From: Trichobilharzia szidati
Taxonomy: Eukaryota > Platyhelminthes > Trematoda > Strigeidida > Schistosomatidae
DNA length: 64,000 nt
Direction: 5' to 3'
Assembly: GCA_944472155.2 (NCBI GenBank)
Contig: OX235273.1
Coordinates: 31,903,204 to 31,967,203 of the forward strand
Shown here: one piece after another, positions 30,208 through 64,000 of the stretch
Position numbering within the stretch: the first letter of the stretch is position 1
Layout: each line of letters starts with the position of its first letter
Made by a program: the position numbers and the translations under genes
The notes under the pieces: generated by a model
Told to the model about the DNA's origin: nothing
Seen by the model: the letters and a program-made list of their open reading frames with translations, nothing else
Database searches by the model: none

Positions 30208-30839
30208 TTTTCATTATGTATAATTCCCGAGATTGACTGACATCGTGTGAGATTTGATGACTGCAGTGTCATTTCACCTCTTATTGGTCAGAGATACGCA
30301 AAACACATTCGATGATCTGTTAAATATTTTCAAAATTTAGGCATCGAGTTAGATGGATTTCTCACACAGTACCCAAACTAAATGTAAGACCTCTAAACAA
30401 CTTCCGTACTATCCGTGAACGTCAATACCGTCAACCTCTAAACAAGCGATAATGACTAGTAGGTTCACGTGAACATCACTCGCTGAAGACGTGTTCAACT
30501 AGACAAGCGTCTACCTAATATTCACGCAATCATTACTCAGTGAAATAAGTGCTCTGTTAAAAGTCTGGACATTTCATTACGTAGTTACTTGCATAATCAT
30601 TTGATTGCCGGCTTACTCAATTAGTGTTTTACTAAATCGATTAAGTGGTTACGTGCTTACTGACTGATTGAGTGCCCGCCTGTCTGCCTGCCTACTGAAT
30701 GGCTGAATGACATTTGGATGGATGCAGGTCTATTTGCCCGAATATCTGAATCATATTTTCGTTTGCTTTAAATTCCATTCAGCAGAGATTTACGCCTCAA
30801 TTCAACTGGCAGAAATCAACACGCCACATCATTCACTGC

Positions 30840-31000
30840 CTAGCTGACCAACTCCATCCATGACTCACTCACTCACTCTCTCACTCACTCATTTACTTAC
30901 TCACTCCCTCGCTCCCTCCCTCCCTCCCTTACTTAGCCACTTACTGGCTTTCTCTATCTCTCACTGGCTGACTGCACGCCTACTCGACTGACCAACAGCC
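30840..31000. repeat. Degenerate tetranucleotide-periodic DNA (CTCA/CTCC family)
   Basis: Runs of CTCA, CTCC and CTGA with a four-base period, for example at 30862-30930. Similar patches recur at 31570-31680, 32240-32280, 38590-38700, 39330-39420, 44940-45010, 45660-45770 and 63120-63180. They lie next to or inside every copy of the Cys-rich gene and are low-complexity DNA. Confidence 0.75.
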
Positions 31001-31207
31001 TGTCGAACTGTCTCACTGACTAAATGACCAACCGATGAAGCAACGAAGTATCTGGTTGAAACACAGAGGAATTTACACAAGATGGTTCGATGGTAATTTC
31101 GGTGAGCGTGAGGGGAGGGGATGGGAGAATCAGAGCTTCGCTGATCGACAGACAATTGACTGAACAAGAAGAAGTCTGAAAGGTGTGATTTAGATAATGC
31201 AAGTGTA

Positions 31208-31213
31208 TTTATT
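31208..31213 (-). terminator. Poly(A) signal of gene A
   Basis: AATAAA on the minus strand, about 155 bases beyond the stop of gene A, conserved at the same place in all five copies. Confidence 0.7.
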
Positions 31214-31366
31214 ATTAGTAAGTTGTACAGAGGATATCTATCTAAAAGTACACATTGTCCACCGTCTTCAGATCAATGATGACATTATTTTCTTCACGCA
31301 GGAAAGCTTGTTTGAATAATGAGGTGTTCTGTTTAATTAGTCAATTGATGTCTGCTGCGTTAATGT

Positions 31367-32016
31367 TTAATGTCTTCGGCAGCCTTTACAGCAGCCACCT
31401 GGACAATTTCCACCTCGGCATCCACGGCATTTGGGGCATCCACCAGGACAGCCAGCACAACCACTGTTTGCTGCTGCTGCTGCTGGTTCTGGAACTGGAC
31501 CTGCAATGACTGAAATCACAAAACAACAAAACACCACAATTTAATACTCAGCCATTACTCGCTTCATACATTCACCCACCCACACACTCACTCACTCACC
31601 CACTCACCCACACACTCACTCACTCACTCACTCACTAACTGACCCACCGACTCGCTCTATCACCAACTCACTCACTCCTTCATTCATTGTCTCATCAACT
31701 AAGGTAGCATGTAATGACATCATTTCTACTGAGTGAATGTGTTATTTGTCTGTCTGCATTGTCTATCTCTTCTCCTATGTCAACGCGTGATCATGGTCAT
31801 GACGTTGATGTTGATGATGACGTGGAGTAGGAAGAGGAGCAGGAGCAGGAGCAGCAGGAGCAGGAGGAGACGCAGGAGGAATACTTACCTCCCATTTCGA
31901 ATCCCAGTGATGCAACGAGTACAACTAAGACGAGCTGAAATGAAAATGCCCATCAGGAAGGAAGGCATACAATATTACACAACCAGAGTATTCTAACATA
32001 CAGTGAACATCTGCAT
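31367..32016 (-). CDS. Gene A: small secreted Cys/Gly-rich protein, short form (67 aa)
   Basis: Three exons on the minus strand: 32016-32002 (MQMFT), 31934-31889 (46 bp) and 31509-31367 (143 bp). Introns are GT-AG, with phase 0 then phase 1. The protein starts with a signal peptide with core LVLVVLVASLGF and a likely cleavage after VIA. Then come GPVPEP, five Ala, and a Cys/Gly-rich tail with CAGCPGGCPKC, CRGGNCPGGCC and a basic end GCRRH. This copy lacks a seven-codon stretch (three Cys) found in B, C and E, as D does. It is probably a secreted disulfide-rich peptide; its function is unknown and I recognise no named family. The gene model is inferred from conservation and splice sites. Confidence 0.75.
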
Positions 32017-32061
32017 TGTCGTTTACTGTCAACTTGAAGCTACCTACTCACATACACCGTG

Positions 32062-32121
32062 CTTTTTATACTCCTCGAAGTTAACCTCGAAGTCGAGCGA
32101 ACCCGTGGTCACACTCGAAGT
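32062..32121 (-). promoter_or_regulatory. Core promoter of gene A: TATA box and three ACTTCGAG motifs
   Basis: On the minus strand TATAAAAAG (32070-32062) lies 46 bases upstream of the ATG. ACTTCGAG occurs at 32121-32114, 32093-32086 and 32081-32074. The same arrangement with the same spacing is present upstream of B, C and D. Confidence 0.65.
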
Positions 32122-33300
32122 CAGCTGATCAGTAATCAATCAGTGGAATCAACGAGTACGCGTAATGTGAAATGGTTTGATTGACATGCTCACTCGAACG
32201 ATCGACCGCTCAATCGTTTGGAAGATCGATGACTTGTTCACCAGGTGGCTTAATCGCTCGCTCGCTTGCTCGCTCACTCGCCAGCCTGGCAATTCATTTT
32301 TCCCTTTCACCTATTCACCATGTGATGAACAAATAAGCAATCTTTGTATTTGTGGCTCAGTCCGTCATCGCATCTGGTTGGTTGGCTGGTTGATTGGTTG
32401 GTTCGTACGTCCGTTGGTTGATTAGTTCTTCAGCTCGTTGGTTATTCATTTAGTTAGTGGGCCGATGCATGCGTCTTAATCCCCATTTTGGAATAGTTTC
32501 AATTGATTGATTGACTCGCTGACTGACGTGGATAAATTGGAAAACACTTTGCATTCTGCAATTCTTAAATGCAAACTTTGCTTAGTCGCCGTCATTCGGC
32601 GGACAAAGTGAGATAGCTAGCTAGCTCACTGTGTGAAAATTCTCAGCGAAATCTGGGAACAGACAGTCTTATTAATTCTAGTATAAATTGGATGCATTCC
32701 AGATCTGTGAATCAATCTCACATTCACACATACACATACACACGCACACGGATTGACTGCTCTATCGCTGCCTCCCTACACCTCACATTCATCCACAAGC
32801 TATTCACACACTCACCACATCCTTCCTATTCTCTGTCTCTGTTTCAAACTCTGTCTCCTCCTCTCTTCCTCCCTCTCTCTCTCTTGAATTCATCGTAGTT
32901 ATGCATCAATGAAGAGTCACATCGATGTGAAGAAATATTTCAGAAGATAATGTATGAAGATGATGAGTGAGTAAAAGGAAGAACAGTTGAATTTATTGAT
33001 TGACTGATTGGTTGTTTGATTGGTGCAATGGGTGAAATGCTTCCTGGATGAATAAAATCGAAACATCATACATTCTTCTGCTGCAGCTGCATTTATACAA
33101 GGATGGTTTCGTTCTGTCATGTTAATGTAGTATAGTATTGCTGCTGTCTAATCAATGGCTGGCACCCCACAATAAGTAAGCAAGTAAGTGAGTGAGTGAT
33201 TCGAGGTCGTGCCATTCAGGATTCATTCTACGAAACCTAGTCAATTCGTCGTAGATAGATTGGCTCAGTCAATGGCACATGAGGAAAATGAATATGATGG
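32122..33300. other. Divergent-spacer DNA next to gene A, low complexity
   Basis: Contains four-base periodic DNA (GGTTGGTT, CTCGCTCG), a CA-rich tract near 32725-32750, and conserved but probably non-coding frames such as 32177-32425. The same DNA is found next to B (37620-38147), C and D. It recurs because the whole flank was copied, so conservation of these frames is not evidence for coding. Confidence 0.6.
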
Positions 33301-34248
33301 GTTGTATTCGCAATGCAAATATCGCACGCCACAGCCACCGTCACCGCCACTGCCACCGCCACCACTATACTTACAAAAATTGCAGTAATTATAAAATTAA
33401 TATTAATAGTCCTTACAACTATCTTCAGTCATGATCGTTTTGACATGCTCACTCAAACGATCATTCGCTGTCTCATTGATTTTTCCTTCTTCTTTGTAAT
33501 TTAACATATATAATTTTTTAGTTTCTGCTCTATTTGTAGATTGTCATATTATGTTGATTTTGTTTTATGTATGTTTTTCTGGATATATTTTGCTTTCCCC
33601 TATTATATTTTATACGGAATATCCGCCACTGTCTTCATGATTCTTCTTCCTTTCACTGACGAATCATTTGGTTTTATGTTCTGTGTATCGATGCAATTTT
33701 ATTGACATATTAGTAGATATATGGCACTTAGGTTTACAGGCATGTAATATCACTGTCTTGAGAGGGGAATGCCGCTCAGTTTGTAAATTATCTGTACTAT
33801 TATTCGAATAATGTGATAGGCTACAAGTTAATTTCTGTAATTCATTTAACACTTTACATGGACGAAACATGTATGCATATTTTTCCTCCATTTCGTATTT
33901 CTTTATGTTCTTTCCTGCATTGTCAACTGCTCAGCCTCGTATTCCTAAATCGACTTACTTTTCTTTAGGAGCAATTATTCGCCAGTTGATTTTAACTCTT
34001 ATGTATTTTTTATGCTAACAGTTTAGACTAGACAGGGACCAATCTCGTAACTGTCAGAACATCTTTGATTTGTTTCACTTTCAAATGCTGTACAAGATCG
34101 ATTTCAGGCATTTGTTTCCCACAGAACAAAGTAGTTACGAAGATTAATTAGTCAAGTCCTCCTCACAGCAAAATCATTGAAACCTAACCGTTACTCAGGA
34201 TAGTTGAGAATACTACACCCAGGTTTAAGATGATTCATTTGTTTCTAG

Positions 34249-34289
34249 GGGAAAATAACTCGTTCCTACAAGATAACGCGGAGCTAGAG
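34249..34289 (+). CDS. Possible exon of the S1 host gene (weak)
   Basis: Between a good acceptor (TTTGTTTCTAG) and donor GTGCGT, one frame reads ENNSFLQDNAELE. The exon is 41 bp, so by itself it is weak evidence. It lies 1.4 kb upstream of two better exons on the same strand, but the phase would require at least one exon between. Confidence 0.25.
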
Positions 34290-35663
34290 GTGCGTTTAAC
34301 GTCATATGCATGAACAGCGTGTATGCCATCCATCACATCACTGAACTATGCAGTTACATGAGATTAGGAGTAATTTTCGATTCGGAAAATACTATCCTAC
34401 TTCTGATGAACAGGCTAGCAGTATTTCAAAGCATTCCAATCCGCCGAGAATTCGCCTAGTGGTGAACATATGTGCATTATTCCACTGAGTATATAGGTTC
34501 AAATTCATCTCCTCACAGAAAGCCTTTCCGGTACTTCTGTGCCAGCTTACAAAGATGTGATTCTCTTTAACACCTCCTGCTCTTCTACCTAAATGTCCTT
34601 CAATGTAAGTACAAACAAAAATATTTTATCACATTTCATTTCATTACTATTACGTGGAATTAAAATAAGGCATGAAGTGTAATTTGATCTTGTTCCCCAA
34701 ATGTCTAGAAGGGGTAAGTATCCTTCTCACTATGATATCAGTGGCTATAAACTAAGGAATCGTCAGTTTTAGGCGTATACATAACCGAATCGATTGACTG
34801 TAACATTGTATTATACAATAAAAAAACGGAAATAATCCCTAGTTCAAATGTTCTAGTACAATAATACTTGAGTGAATCAAATGAACAGGACTTAGTTGAT
34901 AAGAACAACATTTTCTCTGAATTCTCTTGCATAATCTTCAGAACTCAATACATTACGTTTTAGGTATATGTATATTCCAGTGATTAACTTTGTGAGTGAC
35001 TTCTAATTACTAATGTATACGAGTAATGGATTGTTTCAATTTCTAACGTTTTGTGTTGGCTTTTCTATTCACCATGTTTAGAGGATAAGTTAGCCTTCAG
35101 GGACATTCTAAATTAGGCATTGGATATTTGAACTAAAAAGAAGCCAAACGATTGTGATACACTCCCCGAGAAACAGCTAAACTTTTCGTCCACCAGACAT
35201 CTTCCATCTTAATTGACCTACAATAATTAAGGGAGAATAGTCGAGAAGAAACAAGTCACCTAATGAAATCGGAATAATTTGAATCAAACTATGAACTATC
35301 GATTTTTGTCACCCATTCAACGCCACAGATGTTGTAACATAATCTATTTTTGGAACCTCTGCACCTAATGTTCAGGTACAATGAATCCCACTCAGTTACT
35401 CTCATCATGATATTCCATATTAGATACGTTTATTTGGAATATGAAGTGGCACCTTGCAACATGTGCTGACTGACTATGAATAGATGGTGCTACTGGAGAA
35501 CGTCGCAGGTTGAAAACCTCTAGTGACGATCTAGATGTTTAAGTCAATATAGTTACTGTAATCTAAACAGTGAATGGTCATTGAACCAGGTTTGACGGTT
35601 AGATTATGAGACGTGACTTAGGTATTATCGACAGCTCACAGATGTTGTTGTTTTCATTTCCAG

Positions 35664-35785
35664 TCTACATAGTTACAACTCACATCCGTATTATTGCATA
35701 TCCCATGTGTGTTAATGACCACAAGGAAAGTGAATCACTCATCTTCTCTTATATGAGAACCAGACTCTACCGGCTAACCGTCCGG
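35664..35785 (+). CDS. Exon of an unidentified gene inside spacer S1
   Basis: The 122-bp exon follows TTTTCATTTCCAG and ends at donor GTAAGT. In the frame that stays open across the exon it reads YIVTTHIRIIAYPMC...ESESLIFSYM...LYRLTVR, a normal-looking mixed-composition protein and not low complexity. It enters in phase 1 and leaves in phase 0. That fits the next exon at 36504, which starts in phase 0. The mirror copy on the minus strand (49866-49987) is identical over the frame. I do not recognise the protein family. It may be a fragment of a gene captured in the duplicated spacer. Confidence 0.5.
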
Positions 35786-36503
35786 GTAAGTTATTAGTCT
35801 GTATTGACATTCACATCTCTTTCTTTCCCTTCTTTCGATTATTTGATGTGCACGTGATCTGTCTCAGTTATGCATGTTTCTAGTAATTTTCGATTTGTGG
35901 ATTGAACCTACCCATGTAAATGCGAAAACAGTTCTACTAATTCATATCAGTTGTCTCAATTACAATAAGCGGATATCGCCTTTTGTTCTCTAATACAGTG
36001 GAAATTGCTGAATTATATTGTCAAGGAATCATTGGCTATACACAATATCATACACATAGGAGATTGTTTCATGTCTAAGACTAAATCCCTAGAACTATTT
36101 CCCTACATTTGCACGATACAAGAACCGATATAACATACCCATAAACTCCGTATGACAATTGTCAAGTAGTCATTCATATATCAACGAAATCTTCATAGAT
36201 CCGGGAAAAGACTCAAGTTTTTAGAAACAGACATACAATTGAAAGCACGTTCAGGTGACCGTCTTTCATTAATGCTCATTGGTTTCTTCACAACTCCATA
36301 AAAAGTCGACCGTCATTCTGAGTATCACTCCTTAATAGTCTAAAAGTCAAATACTGTCAATCTAGAGTGCAGTCTGGGAGTCGAGACCAATTGTCTAAAC
36401 TAAATCCTTTTACTTAGCTACCGCTTGGTATGTTTTGTCTATTCGTATACATTGTAAATATGCGGTGGATAATGAATAAACAAATGCGAACATCTGTGCA
36501 CAG

Positions 36504-36677
36504 CGCACTGCAAGCCCGTTCTCCTACCAACTTTTGCACATTGTGGAATCTCTGTCTATTCATGAGAAAATCAAATGCTCATCAGCAGCATACCAATACC
36601 TGTGGATCATTCTTTCCTGGAATCTTCGATATATTCCTGTGGATATCCATCTAGTTTTATCTCCCCACTTCTTAAGG
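36504..36677 (+). CDS. Second exon of the unidentified S1 gene
   Basis: After CATCTGTGCACAG the exon runs 174 bp, 58 codons in phase 0, to donor GTAATG. It reads RTASPFSYQLLHIVESL, then a section with YQYLWIILSWNLRYIPVDIH and a final LVLSPHFLR. Reading through the donor would soon meet a stop (GTA ATG ACT AGA TAA). The only base difference seen in its mirror copy at 48984-49157 is CTA to CTG, a synonymous Leu change, while neighbouring intron DNA differs more. The exon is longer and more protein-like than others in S1. The downstream exon could not be found. Confidence 0.5.
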
Positions 36678-37060
36678 GTAATGACTAGATAAGTTATGAC
36701 CTGTCACATTTCTTCAAAGCCGAGGTTATCAGTGATGGATAAGAATAGAAGGATCGTTCATGAGAATGTTTTCTTAAGCTCCCGAATCCCTCACCAGTGT
36801 GTAATTCAAGCTGATGAGTAGTGGCTCAAAGTGAGTGATCATCTATAATCAATGATCACAGTGTGAGTCCAGCCTCTTAGAAGTCCGGAAACATAAATTA
36901 AAACTGATGTAAACTGTAAAGTACCAACGAAAAAAATAACGAAAATCACACACTCGCTGATTGATTGGTTAAAGAATGTAAACTGTATAGATAGATGTAA
37001 ATAGCTGTTCGATCACTTGAAGAAAATACACGTTGGCTTCCGTGTCTCGCCTTGTGCTGT

Positions 37061-37135
37061 TCCAGTGGCAGTAGCAGTGGCAGTGGCAGTGCAGTGGCAG
37101 TGGCAGTGGCAGTGGCAGTGGCAGTGGCAGTGGTA
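37061..37135. repeat. Hexanucleotide microsatellite (CAGTGG)n
   Basis: About a dozen units of CAGTGG/GGCAGT. The mirror position near 48595-48625 in S1' has only about four units, so the tract has changed length since the inverted duplication. Confidence 0.85.
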
Positions 37136-37299
37136 GTCGTAGTCGTAGTTGTAGTTGTAATGGTAGTGATTTATTAATATTATGTGATTGACATGCTCAA
37201 CCTTGTCATCTTTGCCACATTATCGTTGAAAGAAATATGAAAACCAACACTGTGATTTCTATTTTTATAGTTACACTTATTAGTAGTAGTATTAATATT

Positions 37300-37330
37300 A
37301 TCGTTGTTACTCTTGTTGTTGTTGCTGTTG
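37300..37330. other. Empty site of a PLE insertion
   Basis: Read on the minus strand, this gives AACAACAAGAGT once, running straight into ACAACGATAATATT. In the mirror spacer S1' the same AACAACAAGAGT occurs on both sides of a 1.37-kb PLE (47040-48406). This is therefore the pre-insertion state. Confidence 0.9.
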
Positions 37331-38147
37331 TTGTTATGATTACACTTTTGCTTAGTAATCTTATGATTAATTACATCTTGCTTGTTGCTTGTAATCCTCA
37401 ACAGTTGGTTGACTGATTGGTCTACTCAGTGTGCAGTGACGGCATGGTGACAGTGCTAGTGGTCACTGTGAGTAGTGAGATGATGCTGATGACAGTGCAG
37501 TGCAGTGCAGTGCAGTGCAGTGTTGTGGTGTGCATCTTTTCGAGGACATTTGAATTTAGGGAGAAGAACGAAATGGTGTGTATCCAGCTATCCGGCCAGC
37601 CAGCCGGCGAGTCAGCCTAGGTGAGATTGACATGACAGAGATTAGAATCCAGCTATCTGGCTCTGTCCACCGAATGACGGCGACTAAGCAAAGTTTGCAT
37701 TTAAGAATTGCAGAATGCAAAGTGTTTTCCAATTTATCCACGTCAGTCAGCGAGTCAATCAATCAATTGAAACTATTCCAAAATGGGGATTAAGACGCAT
37801 GCATCGGCCCACTAACTAAATGAATAACCAACGAGCTGAAGAACTAATCAACCAACGGATGTACGAACCAACCAATCAACCAGCCAACCAACCAGATGCA
37901 ATGACGGACTGAGCCACAAATACAAAGATTGCTTATTTGTTCATCACATGGTGAATAGGTGAAAGGGAAAAATGAATTGCCAGGCTGGCGAGTGAGCGAG
38001 CAAGCGAGCGAGCGATTAAGCCACCTGGTGAACAAGTCATCGATCTTCCAAACGGTTGAGCGGTCGATCGTTCGAGTGAGCATGTCAATCAAACCATTTC
38101 ACATTACGCGTACTCGTTGATTCCACTGATTGATTACTGATCAGCTG

Positions 38148-38207
38148 ACTTCGAGTGTGACCACGGGTTCGCTCGACTTCGAGGTTAACTTCGAGGAGTA
38201 TAAAAAG
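38148..38207 (+). promoter_or_regulatory. Core promoter of gene B: TATA box and three ACTTCGAG motifs
   Basis: ACTTCGAG lies at 38148-38155, 38176-38183 and 38188-38195, followed by TATAAAAAG at 38199-38207. The ATG is at 38253, so transcription should start near 38230. No known flatworm factor is assigned to the motif. Confidence 0.68.
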
Positions 38208-38252
38208 CACGGTGTATGTGAGTAGGTAGCTTCAAGTTGACAGTAAACGACA

Positions 38253-38920
38253 ATGCAGATGTTCACTGTATGTTAGAATACTCTGGTTGTATAATATTGT
38301 ATGCCTTCCTTCCTGATGGGCATTTTCATTTCAGCTCGTCTTAGTTGTACTCGTTGCATCACTGGGATTCGAAATGGGAGGTAAGTATTCCTCCTGCGTC
38401 TCCTCCTGCTCCTGCTGCTCCTGCTCCTGCTCCTCTTCCTACTCCACGTCATCATCAACATCAACGTCATGACCATGATCACTCGTTGACATAAGAGAAG
38501 AGATAGACAATGCAGACAGACAAATAACACATTCACTCAGTAGAAATGATGTCATTACATGCTACCTTAGTTGATGAGACAATGAATGAAGGAGTGAGTG
38601 AGTTGGTGATAGAGCGAGTCGGTGGGTCAGTTAGTGAGTGAGTGAGTGAGTGAGTGTGTGGGTGAGTGGGTGAGTGAGTGAGTGTGTGGGTGGGTGAATG
38701 TATGAAGCGAGTAATGGCTGAGTATTAAATTGTGGTGTTTTGTTGTTTTGTGATTTCAGTCATTGCAGGTCCAGTTCCAGAACCAGCAGCAGCAGCAAAC
38801 AGTGGTTGTGCTGGCTGTCCTGGTGGATGCCCCAAATGCCGTGGAGGGTGTTGTGGATGCCGTGGATGCCGAGGTGGAAATTGTCCAGGTGGCTGCTGTA
38901 AAGGCTGCCGAAGACATTAA
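38253..38920 (+). CDS. Gene B: small secreted Cys/Gly-rich protein, long form (73 aa)
   Basis: Exons: 38253-38267, 38335-38380 and 38760-38920. Introns are GT-AG (67 and 379 bp). The total is 222 bp, 73 residues. Exons 1-2 encode a signal peptide (MQMFTLVLVVLVASLGF). Exon 3 gives the pro-like GPVPEPAAAANSG and then a domain with 12 Cys in 37 residues (CAGCPGGCPKC, CRGGCCGCRGC, NCPGGCCKGC) and a basic C-terminus RRH. The ATG at 38253 is chosen because it lies just after the predicted start site and gives the only signal peptide across the splice. The paired-Cys and Gly pattern could form a disulfide knot or bind metal; neither is shown. B faces C across a transposon-filled spacer. Confidence 0.8.
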
Positions 38921-39073
38921 ACATTAACGCAGCAGACATCAATTGACTAATTAAACAGAACACCTCATTATTCAAACAAGCTTTCCTGCGTGAAGAAAAT
39001 ACTGTCATCATTGATCTGAAGACGGTGGACAATGTGTACTTTTAGATAGATATCCTCTGTACAACTTACTAAT

Positions 39074-39079
39074 AATAAA
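39074..39079 (+). terminator. Poly(A) signal of gene B
   Basis: AATAAA, 154 bases after the stop codon and at the equivalent position in A, C, D and E. Confidence 0.7.
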
Positions 39080-39099
39080 TACACTTGCATTATCCAAAT

Positions 39100-40103
39100 C
39101 ACACCTTTCAGACTTCTTCTTTTTCACTCAATTGTCTGTCAATCAGCGAAGCTCTGATTCTCCCCTCCCCTCCCCTCACGCTCACCGAAATTACCATCGA
39201 ACCATCTTGTGTAAATTCCTCTGTGTTTCAACCAGATACTTCGTTGCTTCATCGGTTGGTCATTTAGTCAGTGAGACAGTTCGTCAGGCTGTTGGTCAGT
39301 CGAGTAGGCGTGCAGTCAGCCAGTGAGAGAGAGAGAAAGCCAGTAAGTGGCTAAGTAAGGGAGGGAGGGAGGGAGCGAGGGAGTGAGTAAGTAAATGAGT
39401 GAGTGAGTGAGTCATGGAGGGAGTTGGTCAGCTAGGCAGTGAATGATGTGGCGTGTTGATTTCTGCCAGTTGAATTGAGGCATGAATCTCTGCTGAATGG
39501 AATTTAAAGTATACGAAAATATGATTGATATATTCGGCCAAATAAACCAGCATCCATCCATCCAAAATGGTCAGTCAGCCATTCAGTAGTCAGGCAGTCA
39601 GGTGGGCAGTCAGTCAGCAAGCACGTAAGCACGTAATCAAGTCAGAAAGAAAGTAATTGAGTAAGCCAGCCAGCCAGCCAGCAAGCGAGCAAGCAAGTGA
39701 TTATGCAAGTAACTACGTAATGAAATGTCCGGATTTTTAATAGAGTACTTATTTCACTGAGTAATGATTGCGTGAATATTAGGCAGGTGCTTGTTTAGTT
39801 GAAGACGTCTTCAGTGAGTGATGTTCATGGGCAGTCAGCCAGTGTTGGAGACAAAATATCATTAAGTGCCTAGGTAAGGTAGGAGTGAGTAAGTAAATGA
39901 ATGAGTGAGATTATCAAGGCAGTGTTTTGTTAGCCAGTCAGTGAAGAGAGATTGTATTTGGGAGAAATTAGTCGTGCGGTAGGAGACTACTGAGTGAAAG
40001 TAACGCCAGAGAACGGGAATTCTTGACATTCAACTACATCTTAAAGACAATTTTCACTCATTCATTCAAAAATATTAATAATAAGAATCATGATAATAAT
40101 CAG
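39100..40103. repeat. 3' flank of gene B, four-base periodic repeat DNA
   Basis: Made of GTCA/GTGA/GAGG-type periodic sequence with a unique core. It is the direct counterpart of 54400-55360 and the inverse of 44480-45270. The frames in it are shared only because the DNA was copied, and none looks like a protein. Confidence 0.65.
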
Positions 40104-40105
40104 AC

Positions 40106-40733
40106 ATGTCATCCTACCCTCCAAACGACAACCTATAACTTCACATTTATCACAACCTGTTTTTCCATTGTGACCGACGGTTTGTTTTACCTTAGAACGA
40201 GCAGGCGTGTCACATATAAATGCTAGAACACTTACAGTCACACTCCCACCCCACTTCTCATCATATAGACCGTTTTTATAAAGATCTTTCAATTCAACTA
40301 ATAGGTCCATAGAAACCTCATTGAAGTTGTTCGGTTTTCTCAAACCGCCATGTATGCCAATTAAGAAAACGTCACTGACGTATGGAGTTGTGATACGACC
40401 TAGGAATGGCCATAATTGCTGCTAAGAACTGTTCGATATAGATAAACCGTCATAGTTGATTTGCAAGCCAATATGTTGAAAAGTACCGTAGTCAATCCAA
40501 CTATCTTGATAACGCTGTAGATTTTCCTTCAGTCCAACGTGATAGTAAACACCTTGTCCAAGAAATCTAGGTACACACATGCCGCTATCTTTTAGCAAGC
40601 CTCTTATGGTTGTTGGTACATGTGGATTAAATTTACGCATACAGTTCAAGATATCTTGCGCAACAGCCCCTGTTACATTGTTCCTAAGGAACAATTCCAT
40701 AATTGACTTTCTGACCAGCTCTTTTTGGGTCAT
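40106..40733 (-). pseudogene. CACTA transposase, truncated (copy in B-C spacer)
   Basis: It begins MTQKELVRKSIMELFLRNN and shows DILNCMRKFNPHVPTTIRGLLK, then YYHVGLKENLQRY. A TAG at 40422 interrupts the frame, after which it continues QQLWPFLGRITTPY...GLRKPNNFNEVSMDLLVELKDLY and CDTPARSKVKQTVGHNGKTGCDKCEVIG. Cys-containing CxKCxxxG pieces of this kind occur in transposases of CACTA elements. The C-terminal half is missing because of the deletion at 40105. The same TAG is present at 56272, so that mutation predates the duplication. It cannot make an active enzyme. Confidence 0.7.
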
Positions 40734-53500: not shown

Positions 53501-53520
53501 GATTGATTACTGATCAGCTG

Positions 53521-53580: not shown

Positions 53581-53625
53581 CACGGTGTATGTGAGTAGGT
53601 AGCTTCAAGTTGACAGTAAACGACA

Positions 53626-54219
53626 ATGCAGATGTTCACTGTATGTTGGAATACTCTGGTTGTATAACATTGCATGCCTTCCTTCCCGATGGGCATTTTC
53701 ATTTCAGCTCGTCTTAGTTGTACTCGTTGCATCACTGGGATTCGAAATGGGAGGTAAGTCTTCCTCCTGCGTCTCCTCCTCCTCATCCTGCTCCTGCTCC
53801 TCTTCCTACTCCACGTCATCATCAACATCATCATGATCATGATCACTCGTTGACATAAGAAAAGAGATAGACAATGCAGACAGACAAATAACACATTCAC
53901 TCAGTAGAAATGATGTCATTACATGCTACCTTAGTTGATGAAACAATGAATGAAGGAGTGACTGAGTTGGTGATAGAGTGAGTCAGTGGGTCAGTGAGTG
54001 AGTGGGTGGGTGAGTGAATGTATGAAGCAAGTAATGGCTGAGTATTAAATTGTGGTGTTTTGTTGTTTTGTGATTTCAGTTATTGCAGGTCCAGTTCCAG
54101 AACCAGCAGCAGCAGCAAACAGTGGTTGTGCTGGCTGTCCTGGTGGATGCCCTAAATGCCGTGGATGCCGAGGTGGAAATTGTCCAGGAGGCTGCTGTAA
54201 AGGCTGCCGAAGACATTAA
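53626..54219 (+). CDS. Gene D: small secreted Cys/Gly-rich protein, short form (66 aa)
   Basis: Exons: 53626-53640, 53708-53753 and 54080-54219 (15, 46 and 140 bp). Introns are GT-AG (67 and 326 bp); the second is shorter than in B because tandem GTGA-type repeats are missing. It has the same signal peptide and GPVPEP-Ala segment. The Cys domain goes directly from CPKC to RGCRGGNC, lacking seven codons with three Cys, leaving nine. An odd Cys number might allow dimerisation, or the lost loop may not matter. D is the mirror partner of A, which has the same short exon. Confidence 0.78.
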
Positions 54220-54364
54220 ACATTAAATCAGGAGACAATAATTAATTAAATAGAACACCCCATTACTCATGCAAGCTTTCCAACGTGAAGAAAACGCTGT
54301 CATCATTGATTTGAAGACGGTGGACAATGTGTACTTTTAGATATCCTCTGTACAACTTACTAAT

Positions 54365-54370
54365 AATAAA
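54365..54370 (+). terminator. Poly(A) signal of gene D
   Basis: AATAAA, 146 bases after the stop codon, equivalent to the signals of the other copies. Confidence 0.7.
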
Positions 54371-54399
54371 TACACTTGCACTATCCAAATCACACCTTT

Positions 54400-55360
54400 C
54401 AGACTTCTTCTTTTTCAGTCAATTGTCTGTCAATCAGCGAACCTCTGATTCTCCCATCCCCTACCGCTCACCGAAATTAGCATTGAACCATTTTGTGTAA
54501 ATTCCTCTGTGTTTCAACCAGATACTTCGTTGCTTCATCGGTTGGTCATTTAGTCAGTGAGACAGTTTGTCAGGCTGTTGGTCAGTCGAGTAGGCGGGCA
54601 GTCAGCCAGTGTGAGAGAGAGGAAGCCAGTAAGTGGCTAAGTAAGGGAGGGAGGGAGTGAGTAAGTAAATGAGTGAGTGAGTCATGGAGGGAGTTGGTCA
54701 GCTAGGCAGTGAATGATGCTGCGTGTTGATTTCTGCCAGTTGAATTGAGGCGTAAATCTCTGCTGAATGGAATTTAAAGTATACGAAAATATGATTGAGA
54801 TATTCGGCCAAATAAACCAGCATCCATCCAAATGGTCAGTCAGCCATTCAGTAGTCAGGCAGGCGGTCAGTCAGTCAGTAAGCACGTAAGCACGTAATCA
54901 AGTCAGAAAGAAAGTAATTGAGTAAGCCAGCCAGCCAGCAAGCAAGTGATTATGCAAGTAGCTACGTAATGAAATGTCCAGATTTTTAATAGAGCACTTA
55001 TTTCACTGAGTAATGACTGCGTGAATTAGGTTGGTGCCTGTTTAGTTGAAGACGTCTTCAGCGAGTGATTTTCACGGGCAGTCAGACAGTTTGAGAGACA
55101 AATATCAGTAAGTGGCTATGTAAGGGAGGGACTGAGTAAGTAAATGAATGAGTAAGTGAGTGAGAATATCAAGGTGGGATTTTGTCAGCCAGGCAGTGAA
55201 GAGAGATTGTATGTGGGTGAAATTAGTCGTGCGATAGGTAAGTACTGAGCGAAATTCACGCCAGAGAACGGGAATTCGTGAAATACAACTACCTTTTAAA
55301 TACAATTTTCATTCATTCATTCAAAAATTTTAATAAGAACAATAATGATAATAATCAGAC
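54400..55360. repeat. 3' flank of gene D, four-base periodic repeat DNA
   Basis: Direct counterpart of 39100-40103 and inverse of 62480-63440. Many GTCA/GTGA periodic runs; no gene. Confidence 0.65.
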
Positions 55361-55539
55361 AGCAGGCCTGGTAATAATGCGTTAATTAATTAATTAATCA
55401 GTTGATTAATCAATGAAGAGTACTAGAATTAGACATTTTCACCTCAATACGAAGAAGAGAGTCACAGAGGAGAGAGAGACGGGCAGCAAAACAAGTGTAC
55501 TGGTAAATAATTCCCCAAATATTGGGACCACAGCAATCA

Positions 55540-56583
55540 TCACTGAACATTGGATGCGTACAGGTGGCATGGTAGAGTGTTCATGAGTAGGATGGGACCC
55601 AAATATAGTAGGAAAAGTCTACACTCAGTTGCTTTCCATTGGCTAAGGTCATCTAATGACCGACATTTCCTCTGAAAATCAGAAGGAATGTGTTTCCTAC
55701 TTACTTGCAGTCCGTTATTAATATCTGCAATAATCTTACTATCCATTTGCTTCTCTCGCCGTGCTGCAAGACCCTGCCAAAGGAACACCAACTTCTTAAC
55801 AACACCAAGGTATATTAGATGCATTGGCTCCAAGGGAAACGATTTTACCATGTCAAGTGGCAATTCCTCAAGGCAGCTTCTGTCCCCATAGTAACTTGCT
55901 TGAACTTGACCACGGAATGTCCTATCATTTCTAAGTGTCTGGTTCCCATTAGGAAATGTCATCCTACCCTCCAAGCGACAACCTATAACTTCACATTTAT
56001 CACAACCTGTTTTTCCATTGTGACCGACGGTTTGTTTTACCTTAGAACGAGCAGGCGTGTCACATATAAATGCTAGAACACTTACAGTCACACTCCTACC
56101 CCACTTCTCAACATATAGACCGTTTTTATAAAGATCTTTCAATTCAACTAATAGGTTCATAGAAACCTCATTGAAGTTGTTCGGTTTTCTCAAACCGCCA
56201 TGTATGCCAATTAAGAAAACGTCACTGACGTATGGAGTTGTGATGCGACCTAGGAATGGCCATAATTGCTGCTAAGAACTGTTCGATATAGATAAACCGT
56301 CATAGTTGATTTGCAAGCCAATATGTTGAAAAGTACCGTAGGCAACCCAACTATCTAGATAACGCTGTAGATTTTCCTTCAGTCCAATGTGATAGGAAAC
56401 ACCTTGTCCAAGAAATCTGGGTACACACATGCAGCTGTCTTTTAGCAAACCTCTTATGGTTGTTGGTACATGTGGATTAAATTTACGCATACAGTTCAAG
56501 ATATCTTGCGCAACAGCCCCTGTTACATTGTTCCTAAGGAACAATTCCATAATTGACTTTCTGACCAGCTCTTTTTGTGTCAT
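55540..56583 (-). pseudogene. CACTA transposase (copy in D-E spacer)
   Basis: The frame runs from MTQKELVRKSIMELFLRNN, through the TAG at 56272, to a stop at 55540. After the TAG: GLRKPNNFNEVSMNLLVELK, KTGCDKCEVIGCRLEGRMTFPNGNQ, FRGQVQASYYGD, the conserved FPLEPMHLIYLGVVKKLVFLW, and then WKATECRLFLLYLGPILL. The MH..LGV and W(K)ATE.R.FLLY.GP pair is characteristic of CACTA (tnp2-like) transposases. The far C-terminus is lost. The shared TAG suggests a long-dead lineage or a position normally spliced out. Confidence 0.75.
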
Positions 56584-56587
56584 CTTT

Positions 56588-57151
56588 TCAGGAACAACCT
56601 GAAGTTCTATTAAAATTAATTACTACATAATAATAAATGTTACGGTTCTCTTCAATTTGTGAAACAACAGCGGCGGTCTCACTAGTACTAGGTATACCCA
56701 CTGTTCCCTGTACAGTTGAACTTGAAGGCAAAGTTACTTTATTATCCCTTGTCACCTCTTCTCTAGATAAGCAGTAACGTTTCCAGAAGTCCCAGTCACT
56801 AAATGCTGCATCACGTAACCGTTTTTGACGGCGATAAAATGTGGAGTAGCTGTATCCAAGGTATTCATGCAGTTTACCAGAAGATATTCCTCTCTTACGA
56901 CTTGTTGCAGAATGCTGAATACCCGTATCTAACACATTATCTGAGTTGTTTTCCTTATAATAGAAATGGACAAATAGACACCCAAAATCTAACTCACCTG
57001 CATGATTTATAAATCCTGTAAGGATGGTCTCTGTATGTAAGGAGTACTGCTTATATACCTCTAGGCAAACATCCGTTTTCTCACAGGAAGTATATGTTCT
57101 CGTCGGGGAATCAACACAATCACCCCCACCTTGTTTCGTTTGGATTCCCAA
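56588..57151 (-). pseudogene. N-terminal ORF of the CACTA-like element (D-E spacer)
   Basis: 187 codons, closely matching 41355-40738 after an 18-codon gap near the N-terminus. It contains RKRGISSGKLHEYLGYSYS and DWDFWKRYCLSREEV. Function unknown; possibly a DNA-binding partner or the first exon of the transposase. Confidence 0.6.
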
Positions 57152-57382
57152 GGTTTTAATATGTGACCTCGTAAAGAGTGCTCAACAATCGAAAAAATTT
57201 ACACTTCACTTATGACAAGTATCCTTTTTCATCTAAGGGATTTCAGTTTTCATTCCCCCTTTGTTTCGGTTTTCCATTTTTGACCTCATTTTTATTGAGC
57301 TGTTATCAAATTTCGGAACGACGCACTAAAAAATTTTTTTCCCATAGCTGGTCGAATACATCCTCTTCGCCCAGTCCTGGAT

Positions 57383-58771
57383 ATGTCAAATTCTACCTAC
57401 CATGGAGTGGCAAATTGGCTAGGTGAACTCCTCCAACCGCTACACAAGTTGGTGGTAAACCATAGTGTTAAAGACGTTTTTGAATTTATTGCTAACGTGA
57501 ATGATATCAATCTAAATGGGATGCAAATGGTTTCCTTAGATGTAGCGTCACTGTTTACCAATGTACCACTTATGGAGACTGTGGAATTCATATGCCAGCA
57601 GATACTAGAAAAGCAGATTGACATCGGGATTCCAGTTATTAGTCTGAAAGAGTTGCTTTTAAGATGTGCTATGAATGTACATTTCATATTCAACAACCTT
57701 TACTACAGATAAATCGACGGTATTGCCATGGGTTCTCCATTGGGGCCAATTTTGGCAGATTTCTTTCTAGCCAAGATTGAAAATGGTCCATTGAGACAAG
57801 TAATAGAGAAAACTGATTCTTATTTTCGTTATGTTGATGATACGTTCATTATTCTTGATGTGAAAACTGACAAGAATGAAATGTTAAAAAAGTTGAATGA
57901 TGCACATCCATCGTTTATCTTCACTTGTGAAGAAGAACATGATGGTGGATTACATTTCCTTGACGTCCAATTGAGCAGAAGAGAGGATGGTTCATTCAAG
58001 AGAGATGTCTATAGAAAACCTACATCTGTAGGACAATATACACATTTCCTCAGTTTTGTACCAATCCGATATAAAATCAACTTAGTCACATGCGTTACGA
58101 ATAGAGCAAGACGTATTTGTACAGATGACTCCCTAGAAAATGAGCTAGGATATATCCAAAATACGCTGGTCCAAATGGGTTATCCTAGTAGATTTATTAG
58201 GAGACACATGAATACCAGGTACAACAAAGAAAAACTGACAACAGTTGAAAAGAAAGAACTGTTCATGAAACTTCAATTTAATGGGGACGTGCCTAGTGAA
58301 GTCTTACATCTGAGATTAGCGAGAGCGATAAAACGGACTTATACTGCCGCCACCCTTTGTTTGTCATTTTCCAGCCGACCAATTTTGATTGCTCAAGTGA
58401 AAGATAAGCTACCTAGTTGTGCCACCTCAATGTGTATCTATAAATTTAGTTGCTTCTGTGGAGAAAGCTATATAGGGCGAACAACTAGACAACCTAACAA
58501 ACGCATTAATGAGCATCTTCCTTCATGGTTCGGAAAAGGTCAAATAAAATCCATACGAAGTTCTATTTTGGCTCATTTGATTGATAGCGGTCACCAAGTG
58601 GACGAAAATAGTGCTTTCAAAGTTATCTATCGTATTCCATCGAGTCTTTCGAATGGAATCAGAACCCGTCTTTTACACCTAGCCGAAGCTATGGGAATTC
58701 GAGAGAATAATCCTAGTCTTTGCATACAAAAGAAGTTCTTTCTACCTTTGTCTCTCCCTTGGCCTAGGTGA
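57383..58771 (+). pseudogene. PLE reverse transcriptase and GIY-YIG endonuclease, one nonsense codon
   Basis: One frame over 463 codons interrupted only by TAA at 57710-57712 (in YYR-stop-IDGIAMGSPLGP, where Gln is usual, so probably CAA to TAA). RT motif A is SLDVASLFTNV, motif B GIAMGSPLGPILADFF, motif C FRYVDDTFII. Then VYRKPTSVGQYTHFLSF, KLQFNGDV and the GIY-YIG core CIYKFSCFCGESYIGRTTRQ with KRINEHLPSWF. It ends LCIQKKFFLPLSLPW. The frame is open upstream of the first Met to the insertion edge (PLRPVLD). It is almost intact and hence young. Confidence 0.9.
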
Positions 58772-59578
58772 ATTGTATTCAAAACCCTCCCACCCTTTCT
58801 TATTTTCCACCTCCTTCGTACTTTTATAATGTTTATTTAAATTCTGATTATCGTTCCACTTCACCTTTTAAGATTTGACCCAATTTATTTATACGCTTAT
58901 ATACATTACTATCTTTGTTATTGACAGGCACATGGACTCATGTGAAAAATGGGCTAAGTCCATTTTATCTAACTCACACCACACCCTCTTCACTCACAAC
59001 TCTCCCCTTGTATCTCATCAGGCAGAACTAGAAGCCAATGTAGAAAACTATATGCTCGCACCAGCAAGTACAGAAACTCAACCATACCCTACTTAGCTCG
59101 TGTTCTGTGTGATAAAGAAAGCATTAGGCGTGACACCTATAATTCATTAAATAGTAAGTAGTACAACTGGATCTCGTCTTTCCAACTCACATCATCAATA
59201 GGCACAACATTTTCTTTCCTTCTTTTCCTTTTCTCTCTCTTCTCTTTCCGTTATGTGCTGCTTTGTTTCTTTCTCTCGCTTACGCCAGTAAATATGACAG
59301 CTCCCACTTTTCTAACACCTTCAAACACTGTTCAGCTTTACCTTTGCTACCGACATGTCAATGTGTTGTTGTAATAATGAACTGTGGTTTCCTTAATCTA
59401 TGTAGAATTCTATTTATTGATAATGTACTAACTGGATGCAATACTGTAGTAAATATGCTGAGAATTCCATTCTGTATCACATGTACTGTTTTGGAGTAAA
59501 GCTAATTATTATTATTATTATCACCTGCACAGACTTTATTATCAATATTTTGTTATCATTATAATCAACGTTATTAAC

Positions 59579-60034
59579 TACAGTTTTTGTTCAGCGAAGA
59601 AATTTCTTTTCAACGACTTCATTTTCAAGCTGTACAGTCGTATTTATTTTACAGAAAAGGTCATTAAGTGGCACTAAATAATTGCTCAGTCAATATACAT
59701 ATATATGATAAGAATAACGATAATTAAAATGTTATAAGGGGTAGAGTTGAAGTGGATAAATTACAAAATTATTAAAGATTGTTTTATAAGTGAATTGAAA
59801 TCAAAAATGTTTTAAACAAAATGTTTTGAAACAATCTTTAATAATTTTGTAATTTATCCACTTCAACTCTACCCCTTATAACATTTTAATTATCGTTATT
59901 CTTATCACATATATGTATATTGACTGAGCAATTATTTAGTGCCACTTAATGACCTTTTCTGTAAAATAAATACGACTGTACAGCTTGAAAATGAAGTCGT
60001 TGAAAAGAAATTTCTTCGCTGAACAGAAAACTGT
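59579..60034. repeat. Long fold-back: 206-bp inverted arms with 44-base loop
   Basis: Bases 59579-59784 are a near-perfect reverse complement of 59829-60034. The outer ends contain TTCAGCGAAGAAATTTC, related to the outer arm of the PLE at 29.27 kb and the ends of the PLE at 47.04 kb. RNA from either strand would form a very stable hairpin. Confidence 0.92.
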
Positions 60035-60224
60035 GTTTTTACTTATGAATAAATGGGTATTTTTCGTTATTAACTACGTTCAAAACATTTACCACATTAT
60101 TATTATTATATGATTCCCAAAATCACCGTCATTGGTTAAAATTTTATATATAAATCTATGTAAATTAGAGTAAAGCCTGAAGAAGATCTAATTGAAAACA
60201 ATAATGTTCCTTATATGTCTTGTT

Positions 60225-61020
60225 CGAATACACATTCGACACAACCTACCTTGCTTATAATTTCATTGGTGACCTCGTCTCAACTGAACTGTAATCAAAT
60301 TCAGGGACACTATCACAAACGAAATATATTATTCATTTCAATCTTCATATGTAATAAATTCACATTCTCCTACCCCCTGTTGAATTACGTTTTCGTTGGA
60401 CTCTTATTTACTGTCACACCTTCGGTCAAATAGACCAATTACATCAAATGTAATTCGCAGACAAGTATGCAGCCGTCACACTACATACTCTCTGTGAAAC
60501 CTACTCTTTGCTGATTGGTAGGATTCAATATACTATGTCGAGAGAGAGAGAGAGTGCTATTTTTCAGTATTAACCGCAGCAGTTAACGCATGCTTATTTT
60601 CAGCACTAAAGGCATTATTTCAAAAGATGATCTCTTTTTTAAGATTTTGTCGCATTAATTAAGCACCCAGCTCTCTTTTTAAGCACGACCAGCGTTATTT
60701 CAGAACATAGTGGGTAGAAAAAATATTCATTTACCATAAAAAAGGATTATCAACGCATAGGTAAGCACAAGTTCAGAATTGTTGTAAGCTTGGGGTTTCA
60801 GATGACTTGTTTATCTGAAGGCTTCCGGTCAAGCATTCATGCCATTTGGTACTCCGTCGTGTTACGTTCGTGCTCGATCCCCAGCCAGCTAACCAATTAC
60901 CTGGCACTCAGATTTCGTCATGAAATATATCTCGTAATTTGGACGATCCATTGTGGCGTTTTGCTTTTACTTTGGTCTACCCGGAACGAATACTCTAAAA
61001 TTTGTGGGTATTAGATATTG
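60225..61020. repeat. Spacer core, counterpart of 43681-44470
   Basis: Direct, high-similarity copy including the (GA)n tract near 60540 and the GCAGCAGTTAACGCATGC motif. No gene. Confidence 0.7.
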
Positions 61021-61647
61021 CGTTAGTATACTTCGTACTATTCGTGAACGTCAATACCGTCAGCATCTCAACAAGCAATAATGAGTAGTGTGTTTACGTG
61101 AACATCACTCGCTGAAGACGTCTTCAACTAAACAAGCACCAACCTAATTCACGCAGTCATTACTCAGTGAAATAAGTGCTCTATTAAAAATCTGGACATT
61201 TCATTACGTAGCTACTTGCATAATCACTTGCTTGCTGGCTGGCTGGCTGGCTTACTCAATTACTTTCTTTCTGACTTGATTACGTGCTTACGTGCTTACT
61301 GACTGACTGACCGCCTGCATGACTACTGAATGGCTGACTGACCATTTGGATGGATGCTGGTTTATTTGGCCGAATATATCAATCATATTTTCGTATACTT
61401 TCAATTCCATTCAGCAGAGATTTACGCCTCAATTCAACTGGCAGAAATCAACACGCAGCATCATTCACTGCCTAGCTGACCAACTCCCTCCATGATTCAC
61501 TCACTCATTTACTTACTCACTCCCTCCCTCCCTTACTTAGCCACTTACTGGCTTCCTCTCTCTCACACTGGTTGACTGCCCGCCTACTCGACTGACCAAC
61601 AGCCTGACAAACTGTCTCACTGACTAAATGACCAACCGATGAAGCAA
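61021..61647. repeat. Gene-flank DNA ending at an inversion breakpoint
   Basis: It matches 44480-45110 and is repeated in the same orientation at 62749-63290. At 61645-61647 the flank sequence switches abruptly into CACTA DNA, with CAA shared by both sides. Confidence 0.8.
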
Positions 61648-61657
61648 TGAGGTTTCT

Positions 61658-62278
61658 ATGAACCTATTAGTTGAATTGAAAGATCTTTATAAAAACGGTC
61701 TATATATTGAGAAGTGGGGTAGGAGTGTGACTGTAAGTGTTCTAGCATTTATATGTGACACGCCTGCTCGTTCTAAGGTAAAACAAACCATCGGTCACAA
61801 TGGAAAAACAGGTTGTGATAAATGTGAAGTTATAGGTTGTCGCTTGGAGGGTAGGATGACATTTCCTAATGGGAACCAGACACTTAGAAATGATAGGACG
61901 TTCCGTGGTCAAGTTCAAGCAAGTTACTATGGGGACAGAAGCTGCCTTGAGGAATTGCCACCTGACATGGTAAAATCGTTTCCCTTGGAGCCAATGCATC
62001 TAATTTACCTCGGTGTTGTTAAGAAGTTGGTGTTCCTTTGGCAGGGTCTTGCAGCACGGCGAGAGAAGCAAATGGATAGTAAGATTATTGCAGATATTAA
62101 TAACGGACTGCAAGTAAGTAGGAAACACATTCCTTCTGATTTTCAGAGGAAATGTCGGTCGTTAGATGACCTTAACCATTGGAAAGCAACTGAGTGTAGA
62201 CATTCCCTAATATATTTGGGTCCCATCCTACTCATGAACACTCTACCATGCCACCTGTACGCATCCAATGTTCAGTGA
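61658..62278 (+). pseudogene. CACTA transposase fragment (inverted copy before gene E)
   Basis: 206 codons matching the C-terminal part of the transposase at 56173-55540: MNLLVELKDLY, CDKCEVIGCRLEG, PPDMVKSFPLEPMHLIYLG and WKATECR. It starts at the breakpoint, so its Met is an internal residue. Some replacements relative to the D-side copy are seen near the end (RHSLIYLGP for RLFLLYLGP). It is a fragment carried by the inversion and not an independent insertion. Confidence 0.75.
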
Positions 62279-63440
62279 TGATTGCTGTGGTCCCAATATT
62301 TGGGGAATTATTTACCAGTACACTTGTTTTGCTGCCCGTCTCTCTCTCCTCTGTGACTCTCTTCTTCGTATTGAGGTGAAAATGTCTAATTCTAGTACTC
62401 TTCATTGATTAATCAACTGAATAATTAATTCATTAACGCATTATTATCAAGCCTGCTGTCTAATTATTATCATTATTGTTCTTATTAAAATTTTTGAATG
62501 AATGAATGAAAATTGTATTTAAAAGGTAGTTGTATTTCACGAATTCCCGTTCTCTGGCGTGAATTTCGCTCAGTACTTACCTACCGCACGACTAATTTCA
62601 CCCACATACAATCTCTCTTCACTGCCTGGCTGACAAAATCCCGCCTTGATATTCTCACTCTCTTACTCATTCATTTACTCACTCAGTCCCTCCCTTACAT
62701 AGCCACTTACTGATATTTGTCTCTCAAACTGTCTGACTGCCCGTGAAAATCACTCGCTGAAGACGTCTTCAACTAAACAGGCACCAACCTAATTCACGCA
62801 GTCATTACTCAGTGAAATAAGTGCTCTATTAAAAATCTGGACATTTCATTACGTAGCTACTTGCATAATCACTTGCTTGCTGGCTGGCTGGCTTACTCAA
62901 TTACTTTCTTTCTGACTTGATTACGTGCTTACGTGCTTACTGACTGACTGACCGCCTGCCTGACTACTGAATGGCTGACTGACCATTTGGATGGATGCTG
63001 GTTTATTTGGCCGAATATCTCAATCATATTTTCGTATACTTTAAATTCCATTCAGCAGAGATTTACGCCTCAATTCAACTGGCAGAAATCAACACGCAGC
63101 ATCATTCACTGCCTAGCTGACAAACTCCCTCCATGACTCACTCACTCATTTACTTACTCACTCCCTCCCTCCCTTACTTAGCCACTTACTGGCTTCCTCT
63201 CTCTCACACTGGCTGACTGCCCGCCTACTCGACTGACCAACAGCCTGACAAACTGTCTCACTGACTAAATGACCAACCGATGAAGCAACGAAGTATCTGG
63301 TTGAAACACAGAGGAATTTACACAAAATGGTTCAATGCTAATTTCGGTGAGCGGTAGGGGATGGGAGAATCAGAGGTTCGCTGATTGACAGACAGTTGAC
63401 TGAAAAAGAAGAAGTCTGAAAGGTGTGATTTGGATAATGC
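62279..63440. repeat. Gene-flank DNA before gene E, four-base periodic
   Basis: Inverse of 54380-55540. It includes 62749-63290, the tandem twin of 61100-61647. CTCA/CTCC-type periodic runs at 63130-63180. No gene. Confidence 0.65.
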
Positions 63441-63447
63441 AAGTGTA

Positions 63448-63453
63448 TTTATT
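63448..63453 (-). terminator. Poly(A) signal of gene E
   Basis: AATAAA on the minus strand, equivalent to the other copies. Confidence 0.7.
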
Positions 63454-63598
63454 ATTAGTAAGTTGTACAGAGGATATCTAAAAGTACACATTGGCCGCCG
63501 TCTTCAAATCAATGATGACAGCGTTTTCTTCACGTTGGAAAGCTTGCATGAGTAATGGGGTGTTCTATTTAATTAATTATTGTCTCCTGATTTAATGT

Positions 63599-63759
63599 TT
63601 AATGTCTTCGGCAGCCTTTACAGCAGCCTCCTGGACAATTTCCACCTCGGCATCCACGGCATCCACAACACCCTCCACGGCATTTGGGGCATCCACCAGG
63701 ACAGCCAGCACAACCACTGTTTGCTGCTGCTGCTGGTTCTGGAACTGGACCTGCAATAA
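63599..63759 (-). CDS. Gene E: small secreted Cys/Gly-rich protein, exon 3 only (long form, window edge)
   Basis: The last exon, 161 bp, is complete: VIAGPVPEP, four Ala, then all 12 Cys in the long arrangement and GCRRH. The acceptor is intact. Exons 1 and 2 should lie just beyond 64000 on the same strand. Although E is the mirror partner of D by position, it has the long exon 3 like B and C, so either D lost the 21 bp after the inversion or E was converted. Confidence 0.78.
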
Positions 63760-64000
63760 CTGAAATCACAAAACAACAAAACACCACAATTTAATACTCA
63801 GCCATTACTTGCTTCATACATTCACTCACCCACCCACTCACTCACTGACCCACTGACTCACTCTATCACCAACTCAGTCACTCCTTCATTCATTGTTTCA
63901 TCAACTAAGGTAGCATGTAATGACATCATTTCTACTGAGTGAATGTGTTATTTGTCTGTCTGCATTGTCTATCTCTTCTCTTATGTCAACGAGTGATCAT

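Follow-up and report, generated by a model that had tools for sequence, protein, structure and literature searches.

Why would a schistosome carry one tiny gene many times over, with neighbouring copies facing in opposite directions? The question is raised by a window of 64,000 nucleotides from Trichobilharzia szidati, which spans C3:31903204-31967203 (contig C3 has 154,885,453 bases, in a genome of 1.11 Gb and 907 contigs). Comparison of the window with itself by BLAST, combined with gene models, revealed five copies of a gene on alternating strands (A-, B+, C-, D+ and E-). This is as a first-pass annotation had proposed, and its description of a secreted gene rich in cysteine and glycine within an inverted amplicon agrees with models that carry a signal peptide and a Cys/Gly core. 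On balance, we favour the view that the locus belongs to a gene family amplified for dosage by local inverted duplication and serving abundant disulphide-rich secretion. We regard the amplification as likely; the structural role of the secretion, taken by itself, is a tentative suggestion that we would not call probable.

The five copies of the window are real, and the initial picture of a five-copy array underestimated the scale of the family. A 52-base exon-2 pattern, allowing up to 3 mismatches, was found at 134 places in the genome (0 for the reversed pattern used as control), and the 100 places among the matches listed are all exact and all on C3. With the mature peptide as query, 150 matches were scored from 197 candidates, namely 134 on C3, 14 on C6, one on C90 and one on C471. 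The union of exon-2 and exon-3 places among the matches listed amounts to at least 135 copies on C3, of which at least 123 fall between 26.0 and 34.3 Mb; a subfamily on contig C6 comes in addition. These counts are exon-level matches that include incomplete and broken copies, and they are lower bounds because they come from the best places listed. The deposited T. szidati clusters contain 5 member sequences, which is not a gene count because identical proteins may have been collapsed.

On C3 the copies form 58 clusters (gaps of at most 20 kb), and close neighbours mostly face in opposite directions. Among 72 pairs of neighbours within 15 kb, 57 lie on opposite strands and 15 on the same strand, and strand shuffling gave a mean of 35.8 opposite pairs (standard deviation 4.2), with 0 of 10000 shuffles reaching 57 (binomial 6.5e-7). 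The longest regular array, at 28.842-28.918 Mb, comprises 13 strictly alternating copies, and head-to-head partners are for the most part separated by 7.0-7.4 kb, measured between their third exons.

Within the window, self-alignments extend over kilobases at 88-99% identity, so the repeat structure is beyond chance. The arms A-S1-B and C-S1'-D differ at 175 of 9138 gap-free aligned bases (98.1% identity, with a Penelope insert excluded), which upholds the high likeness claimed for a palindrome of about 25 kb. Its centre (39828-44546) is not one continuous arm, since 39828-41623 and 43439-44546 have no mutual match by self-BLAST, and the identity of the arms is uneven, at 90.5-96.4% across 30468-32067 (the 3' half of A against D) and 96.7-100% beyond. 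The innermost inverted repeat (41624-42400 and 42660-43438, 99.2%) contains a Penelope GIY-YIG-like open reading frame (ORF). The proposed second palindrome, D/E, is borne out: D and E are identical at 2307 of 2335 bases (98.8%), and E is completed past the window end, where the adjoining genome DNA contains exons 2 and 1 and the TATA box, all intact, at window-equivalent 64131, 64209 and 64284. It is unlikely, judging from the sequence, that the five mirror-image copies are an echo of the assembly, because S1' carries a private Penelope insertion with a 12-bp target duplication, the empty site is present in S1 at about 37307-37320, the arms have diverged unevenly, and many further copies are spread along C3.

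Features of the array in the window (positions in the window; strand left empty where none applies)
Feature	Position	Strand	Details
Copy A, extent	30406-32618	-	self-BLAST, gene model
Copy A, gene (67 amino acids)	31367-32074	-	TATA 32057-32074; exon 1 32002-32016; exon 2 31889-31934; exon 3 31367-31509; AATAAA 31213
Copy B, extent	37651-39827	+	self-BLAST, gene model
Copy B, gene (73 amino acids)	38195-38920	+	TATA 38195-38212; exon 1 38253-38267; exon 2 38335-38380; exon 3 38760-38920; AATAAA 39074
Copy C, extent	44483-46707	-	self-BLAST, gene model
Copy C, gene (74 amino acids)	45435-46163	-	TATA 46146-46163; exon 1 46091-46105; exon 2 45978-46023; exon 3 45435-45598; AATAAA 45281
Copy D, extent	53024-55361	+	self-BLAST, gene model
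Copy D, gene (66 amino acids)	53568-54219	+	TATA 53568-53585; exon 1 53626-53640; exon 2 53708-53753; exon 3 54080-54219; AATAAA 54365
Copy E, extent	61645-64000	-	self-BLAST, gene model; cut by window end
Copy E, gene	63599-64000	-	exon 3 63599-63759; exons 1-2 and TATA past window end
Sixth, partial copy	60226-61657	-	3' flank only; 88.6% to C-type flank 43682-45121
S1	32619-37320		head-to-head spacer separating A and B; recurs inverted as S1'
S1'	47028-53023		inverted S1 copy with private Penelope insert
Penelope-like insert	47041-48407	-	private to S1'; 12-bp target duplication ACTCTTGTTGTT
4-bp-periodic DNA	30401-33400 (around A), 37601-40200, 44401-46800, 52401-55400, 61001-61800, 62401-63400		z >4

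The gene models of A to D are complete, with a TATA box, three coding exons (15, 46 and 140-164 nt; intron phases 0 and 1), GT/AG splice sites and a downstream AATAAA, and the deposited T. szidati protein P0001 has the identical spliced order. Exons 1 and 2 encode a hydrophobic signal peptide, recognised from the sequence rather than by a dedicated predictor, and the last exon encodes the mature peptide, in which GPVPEP and an Ala run precede the Cys/Gly core. With cleavage after VIA, the mature peptide of A to D would be 43-51 residues long. In copy B, the core of 34 residues contains 12 Cys and 12 Gly, and the mature peptide of 50 residues is free of Phe, Trp and Tyr. The full Cys core is found in B, C and E; A and D lack a 7-residue piece bearing three Cys. 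The 21 bases absent from exon 3 are the same in both, despite their differing 3'-flank types, and are flanked by short direct repeats, as would result from either recurrent slippage or a short conversion tract.

Scans of Pfam and NCBIfam returned no family match for the peptide. A profile search yielded 8 proteins at E of at most 1, three from Trichobilharzia and five from Schistosoma, and more relatives may exist because no more than 7987 candidates were scored. The window gene belongs with these proteins (P0001-P0003 and P0124-P0128), which share 12 invariant Cys columns and the motif CCGCR-C--G-C-GGCC. P0001 and P0002 are T. szidati proteins; P0003 and P0124-P0128 are from T. regenti, S. 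mattheei, S. rodhaini, S. japonicum and S. margrebowiei. The relatives have a hydrophobic signal peptide wherever the model reaches it (P0002 starts within it) and a short Pro-rich stem, whereas their mature parts have diverged, P0003 and P0124-P0128 being 53-63% identical to P0001. The UniRef name of P0003 refers to an IGFBP N-terminal domain, for which Pfam gave no match (0 families).

Examination of 59 distinct C3 copies, picked as best matches, indicated that most encode an unbroken peptide. Forty-nine have an intact coding sequence between start codon and stop and GT/AG ends on both introns, and 53 of the 59 have a TATA match. Of the ten others, 2 have exon 3 frameshifts, 2 have no GT at the first donor site (GC in one of them) and 6 lack exon 1 at the expected place. 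A 5'-truncated class was noted (L019, L027, L032, L034 and L050), in which the alignment to B starts at 38277-38310 in intron 1, there is no exon 1 at that place, and exons 2-3 are kept. Across the 59 copies, exon 3 has 51 synonymous and 21 nonsynonymous minority codons, 11 of the latter at a single Pro/Ala site and none at Cys, and the peptide varies mainly in the Ala run and at this Pro/Ala site. Nucleotide diversity (pi) is 0.008-0.016 in exons and from TATA box to ATG; introns have 0.035-0.047, and flanks and 3' untranslated region (UTR) have 0.039-0.081, the exon estimates being biased downward because the loci are best matches and 30 of 72 were picked by exact exon 2. Between B and E, 0 of 119 nonsynonymous sites differ, against 17 of 162 3'-UTR sites (Fisher 6.5e-5). 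These comparisons, made at the level of sequence, show the peptide to be under purifying selection.

Neighbouring copies are also the most alike. Those at most 20 kb apart differ by 2.0% in the 5' block (39 pairs) and 2.8% in the 3' block (35 pairs), against 5.7-8.3% for copies more than 20 kb apart. When each copy was paired with its nearest relative, the two were no more than 200 kb apart in 15 of 53 cases for the 5' block (permutations averaged 4.7 and never exceeded 12) and in 22 of 57 for the 3' block (average 5.2, never above 14). A FastTree of 54 copies, rooted at the midpoint and judged by eye, places array copies in short-branched groups and many singletons on long branches, so that the word "young", first applied to the array, suits the array copies and not many of the singletons. 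Local inverted duplication is favoured because neighbours are most alike and array copies group on short branches, and the data would fit array growth in which a head-to-head unit was duplicated in this way, whether or not conversion also acted; for the singletons a further step is required. The earlier suggestion that the copies are kept alike agrees with the likeness of neighbours and the constraint on the protein. Conversion is not separable here from recent duplication, with 3 of 1272 pairs being mosaic.

A mobile cassette was considered as well, as edges common to many copies (near window 37649-37653 and at 39827) looked transposon-like. It was rejected because homology continues past these edges in alternative flank classes, and fixed edges with a target duplication at each copy were not found (a shared target duplication was sought by eye only).

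The copies are further marked by a degenerate 4-bp periodicity, which was scored in 400-base stretches against dinucleotide shuffles (z >4). In the window, 44 of 319 stretches exceed the threshold, all of them in or directly beside the copies and the sixth fragment. So do 92 of 168 stretches around other C3 copies (12 hand-picked of 68 C3 loci) and 20 of 63 on C6 (7 pieces), compared with 4 of 224 (at z 4.4-4.5) in 16 control pieces at round coordinates elsewhere. Such shells might be recombination-prone tracts that repeatedly seed inverted duplication, spreading alternating arrays along a chromosome while selection preserves the peptide unchanged. We hold this to be speculative and quite improbable; if true, gene amplification would here rest on cryptic tetranucleotide DNA and not on a transposon.

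As to what the amplification serves, local inverted duplication of the head-to-head unit would build the arrays, the copies would be strongly expressed together, and the product would be a material secreted in abundance that disulphides knot or cross-link, perhaps an eggshell, gland or surface component. Copy number itself may have been selected. The nearest working analogy, and not a case of membership, would be the chorion locus of the silkmoth (Bombyx mori), likened by gene arrangement and without sequence comparison with chorion proteins. According to the available text of PMC4639761, it comprises 127 genes, with divergent pairs (the late, high-cysteine HcA/HcB being the closest parallel) and gene conversion among high-cysteine genes; as here, more than 100 small secreted-protein genes lie on one chromosome, many in divergent pairs, and some members are Cys-rich. 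The chorion pairs share a promoter region within an 872-kb locus (PMC4639761), whereas in the present family every copy comes with a separate TATA box (those of A and B are 6.1 kb apart) and copies extend over 8 Mb and more. The likeness is one of analogy only, because no promoter is shared. The motif TCACGT, which we take to be the eggshell promoter motif of chorion genes, is absent from both strands of the 602 bases before the B ATG, mildly against an eggshell product.

The gene might instead have been multiplied to supply a secreted effector or decoy directed at the bird or snail host. A signal peptide and a small Cys-rich product would suit this role, and transcription of micro-exon-gene secretions is high in larvae of T. 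szidati according to the available portion of PMC6362228. We consider the proposal unlikely. Effector families usually diversify, whereas variation here is confined mainly to the Ala run and one Pro/Ala site. Micro-exon genes, which are defined by many very short symmetric exons, likewise encode small secreted proteins with a signal peptide, but the present gene has no run of tiny symmetric exons. There is also a slim chance that the product is a metallothionein-like secreted peptide amplified for metal handling, as the density of cysteines and the lack of aromatic residues in copy B would allow; metallothioneins are typically cytosolic, in contrast to a product with a signal peptide and no match to a Pfam family.

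Could the gene simply have been carried along while a repeat-rich region multiplied, by selfish or neutral segmental amplification? The copies are numerous and scattered, the flanks contain Penelope, RTE and transposase-like ORFs, and a search with the C6 peptide (150 matches scored from 193 candidates) gave 30 C6 matches among those listed, of which 11 have an in-frame stop. On C3, however, most copies are intact and coding change is depressed, and stops occur in 1 of 134 matches (Fisher 1.4e-8 against C6), in lists that come from different queries, leave frameshifts uncounted and include seven C3 matches starting only at query residues 6-10. We therefore judge this explanation distinctly unlikely. 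Highly similar palindromic arms also recall sex-linked amplicons such as those of mammalian Y chromosomes. A second subfamily lies on C6, no feature seen here links C3 to Z or W, and the data neither bear out nor contradict a sex-linked location, to which we give a poor chance. The mouse Mup cluster and mammalian Y palindromes likewise consist of inverted units of a single gene family whose members stay similar, though they involve other genes and lineages and a different scale. In Schistosoma, u2af2 is a Z/W gene, as given in the available part of PMC8662593; the available part of PMC10683246 does not mention the Z.

The C6 subfamily is diverged, and its variant shares CPNCP and GCCRGCR with T. 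regenti P0003. Its exon-2 pattern occurs at 17 places, all on C6, and the copies (L069-L072 among them) are dispersed over 38 Mb (61.0-98.9 Mb). The upstream DNA of three copies retains exon 1, the TATA box and the GAGTGTGACCACG block, so promoter blocks are conserved with C3, the two agreeing at 64% across 410 columns.

Several points weigh against amplification for dosage and structural secretion, which we continue to prefer. The evidence is drawn from DNA and protein sequence throughout. Inverted arrays do not explain the 30 of 58 clusters that are singletons, and non-alternating clusters exist (+---- at 28.535-28.565 Mb and +++ at 31.603-31.614 Mb). To these are added the ten of 59 copies that are broken or lack exon 1, the downward bias in exon diversity, and two comparisons with few sites that gave no difference, namely that of synonymous sites with the UTR (p 0.38) and that of exons 1-2 with the introns (p 0.22). 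The fold predicted by AlphaFold from an 8-row alignment adds nothing (mean predicted local distance difference test 55.4, predicted template modelling score 0.24), and a profile search of solved structures gave 2 matches, the best at only E 1.5.

Other repeats were noted in the window. Transposase-like ORFs lie beside B, D and E (40062-41385, 55540-57181 and 61643-62278) and have no Pfam match; the two next to B and D match each other at 97.8% across 1129 bases, and the sixth copy is fused to a truncated one at about 61645-61657. A second Penelope-like element (57299-58771, + strand) has a weak RVT_1 match, and a near-perfect fold-back of about 466 bases (59576-60037, 93.6% self-complementarity) lies near the D/E centre. 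Outside the array, an RTE-type retrotransposon occupies several frames at 17674-19955, with an endonuclease ORF (18828-19955, -) and a reverse-transcriptase ORF (17674-18390, -) matching RVT_1; the closest T. szidati matches of the RTE ORF have 73% identity, and a T. regenti piece 93%. An inverted repeat (21835-22195 and 22512-22873, 362 bases, 95.9%) and an old direct repeat (4492-5774 and 8039-9333, 67.6% over 1337 columns) were also found, and 10 ORFs of the first 30 kb gave one weak Pfam match, below its cut-off.

No description of the family, or of such arrays in a schistosome, was found in the titles and abstract openings of the searched literature, which included no preprints and few subscription journals, and the available parts of PMC6362228, PMC3101182, PMC13155389, PMC12582326 and PMC4639761 do not mention the gene family. 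A chromosome-sized contig carries more than one hundred closely similar copies of a single tiny gene for a secreted peptide, and many of them stand in arrays of alternating, inverted orientation. As copies 2% to 8% apart, they form a graded set for studying how inverted arrays grow and how their likeness is maintained. Since the family spans schistosomes and neither Pfam nor NCBIfam gave a match to it, its tissue and function are directly testable. If the copies are expressed, the parasite would need one product in bulk.

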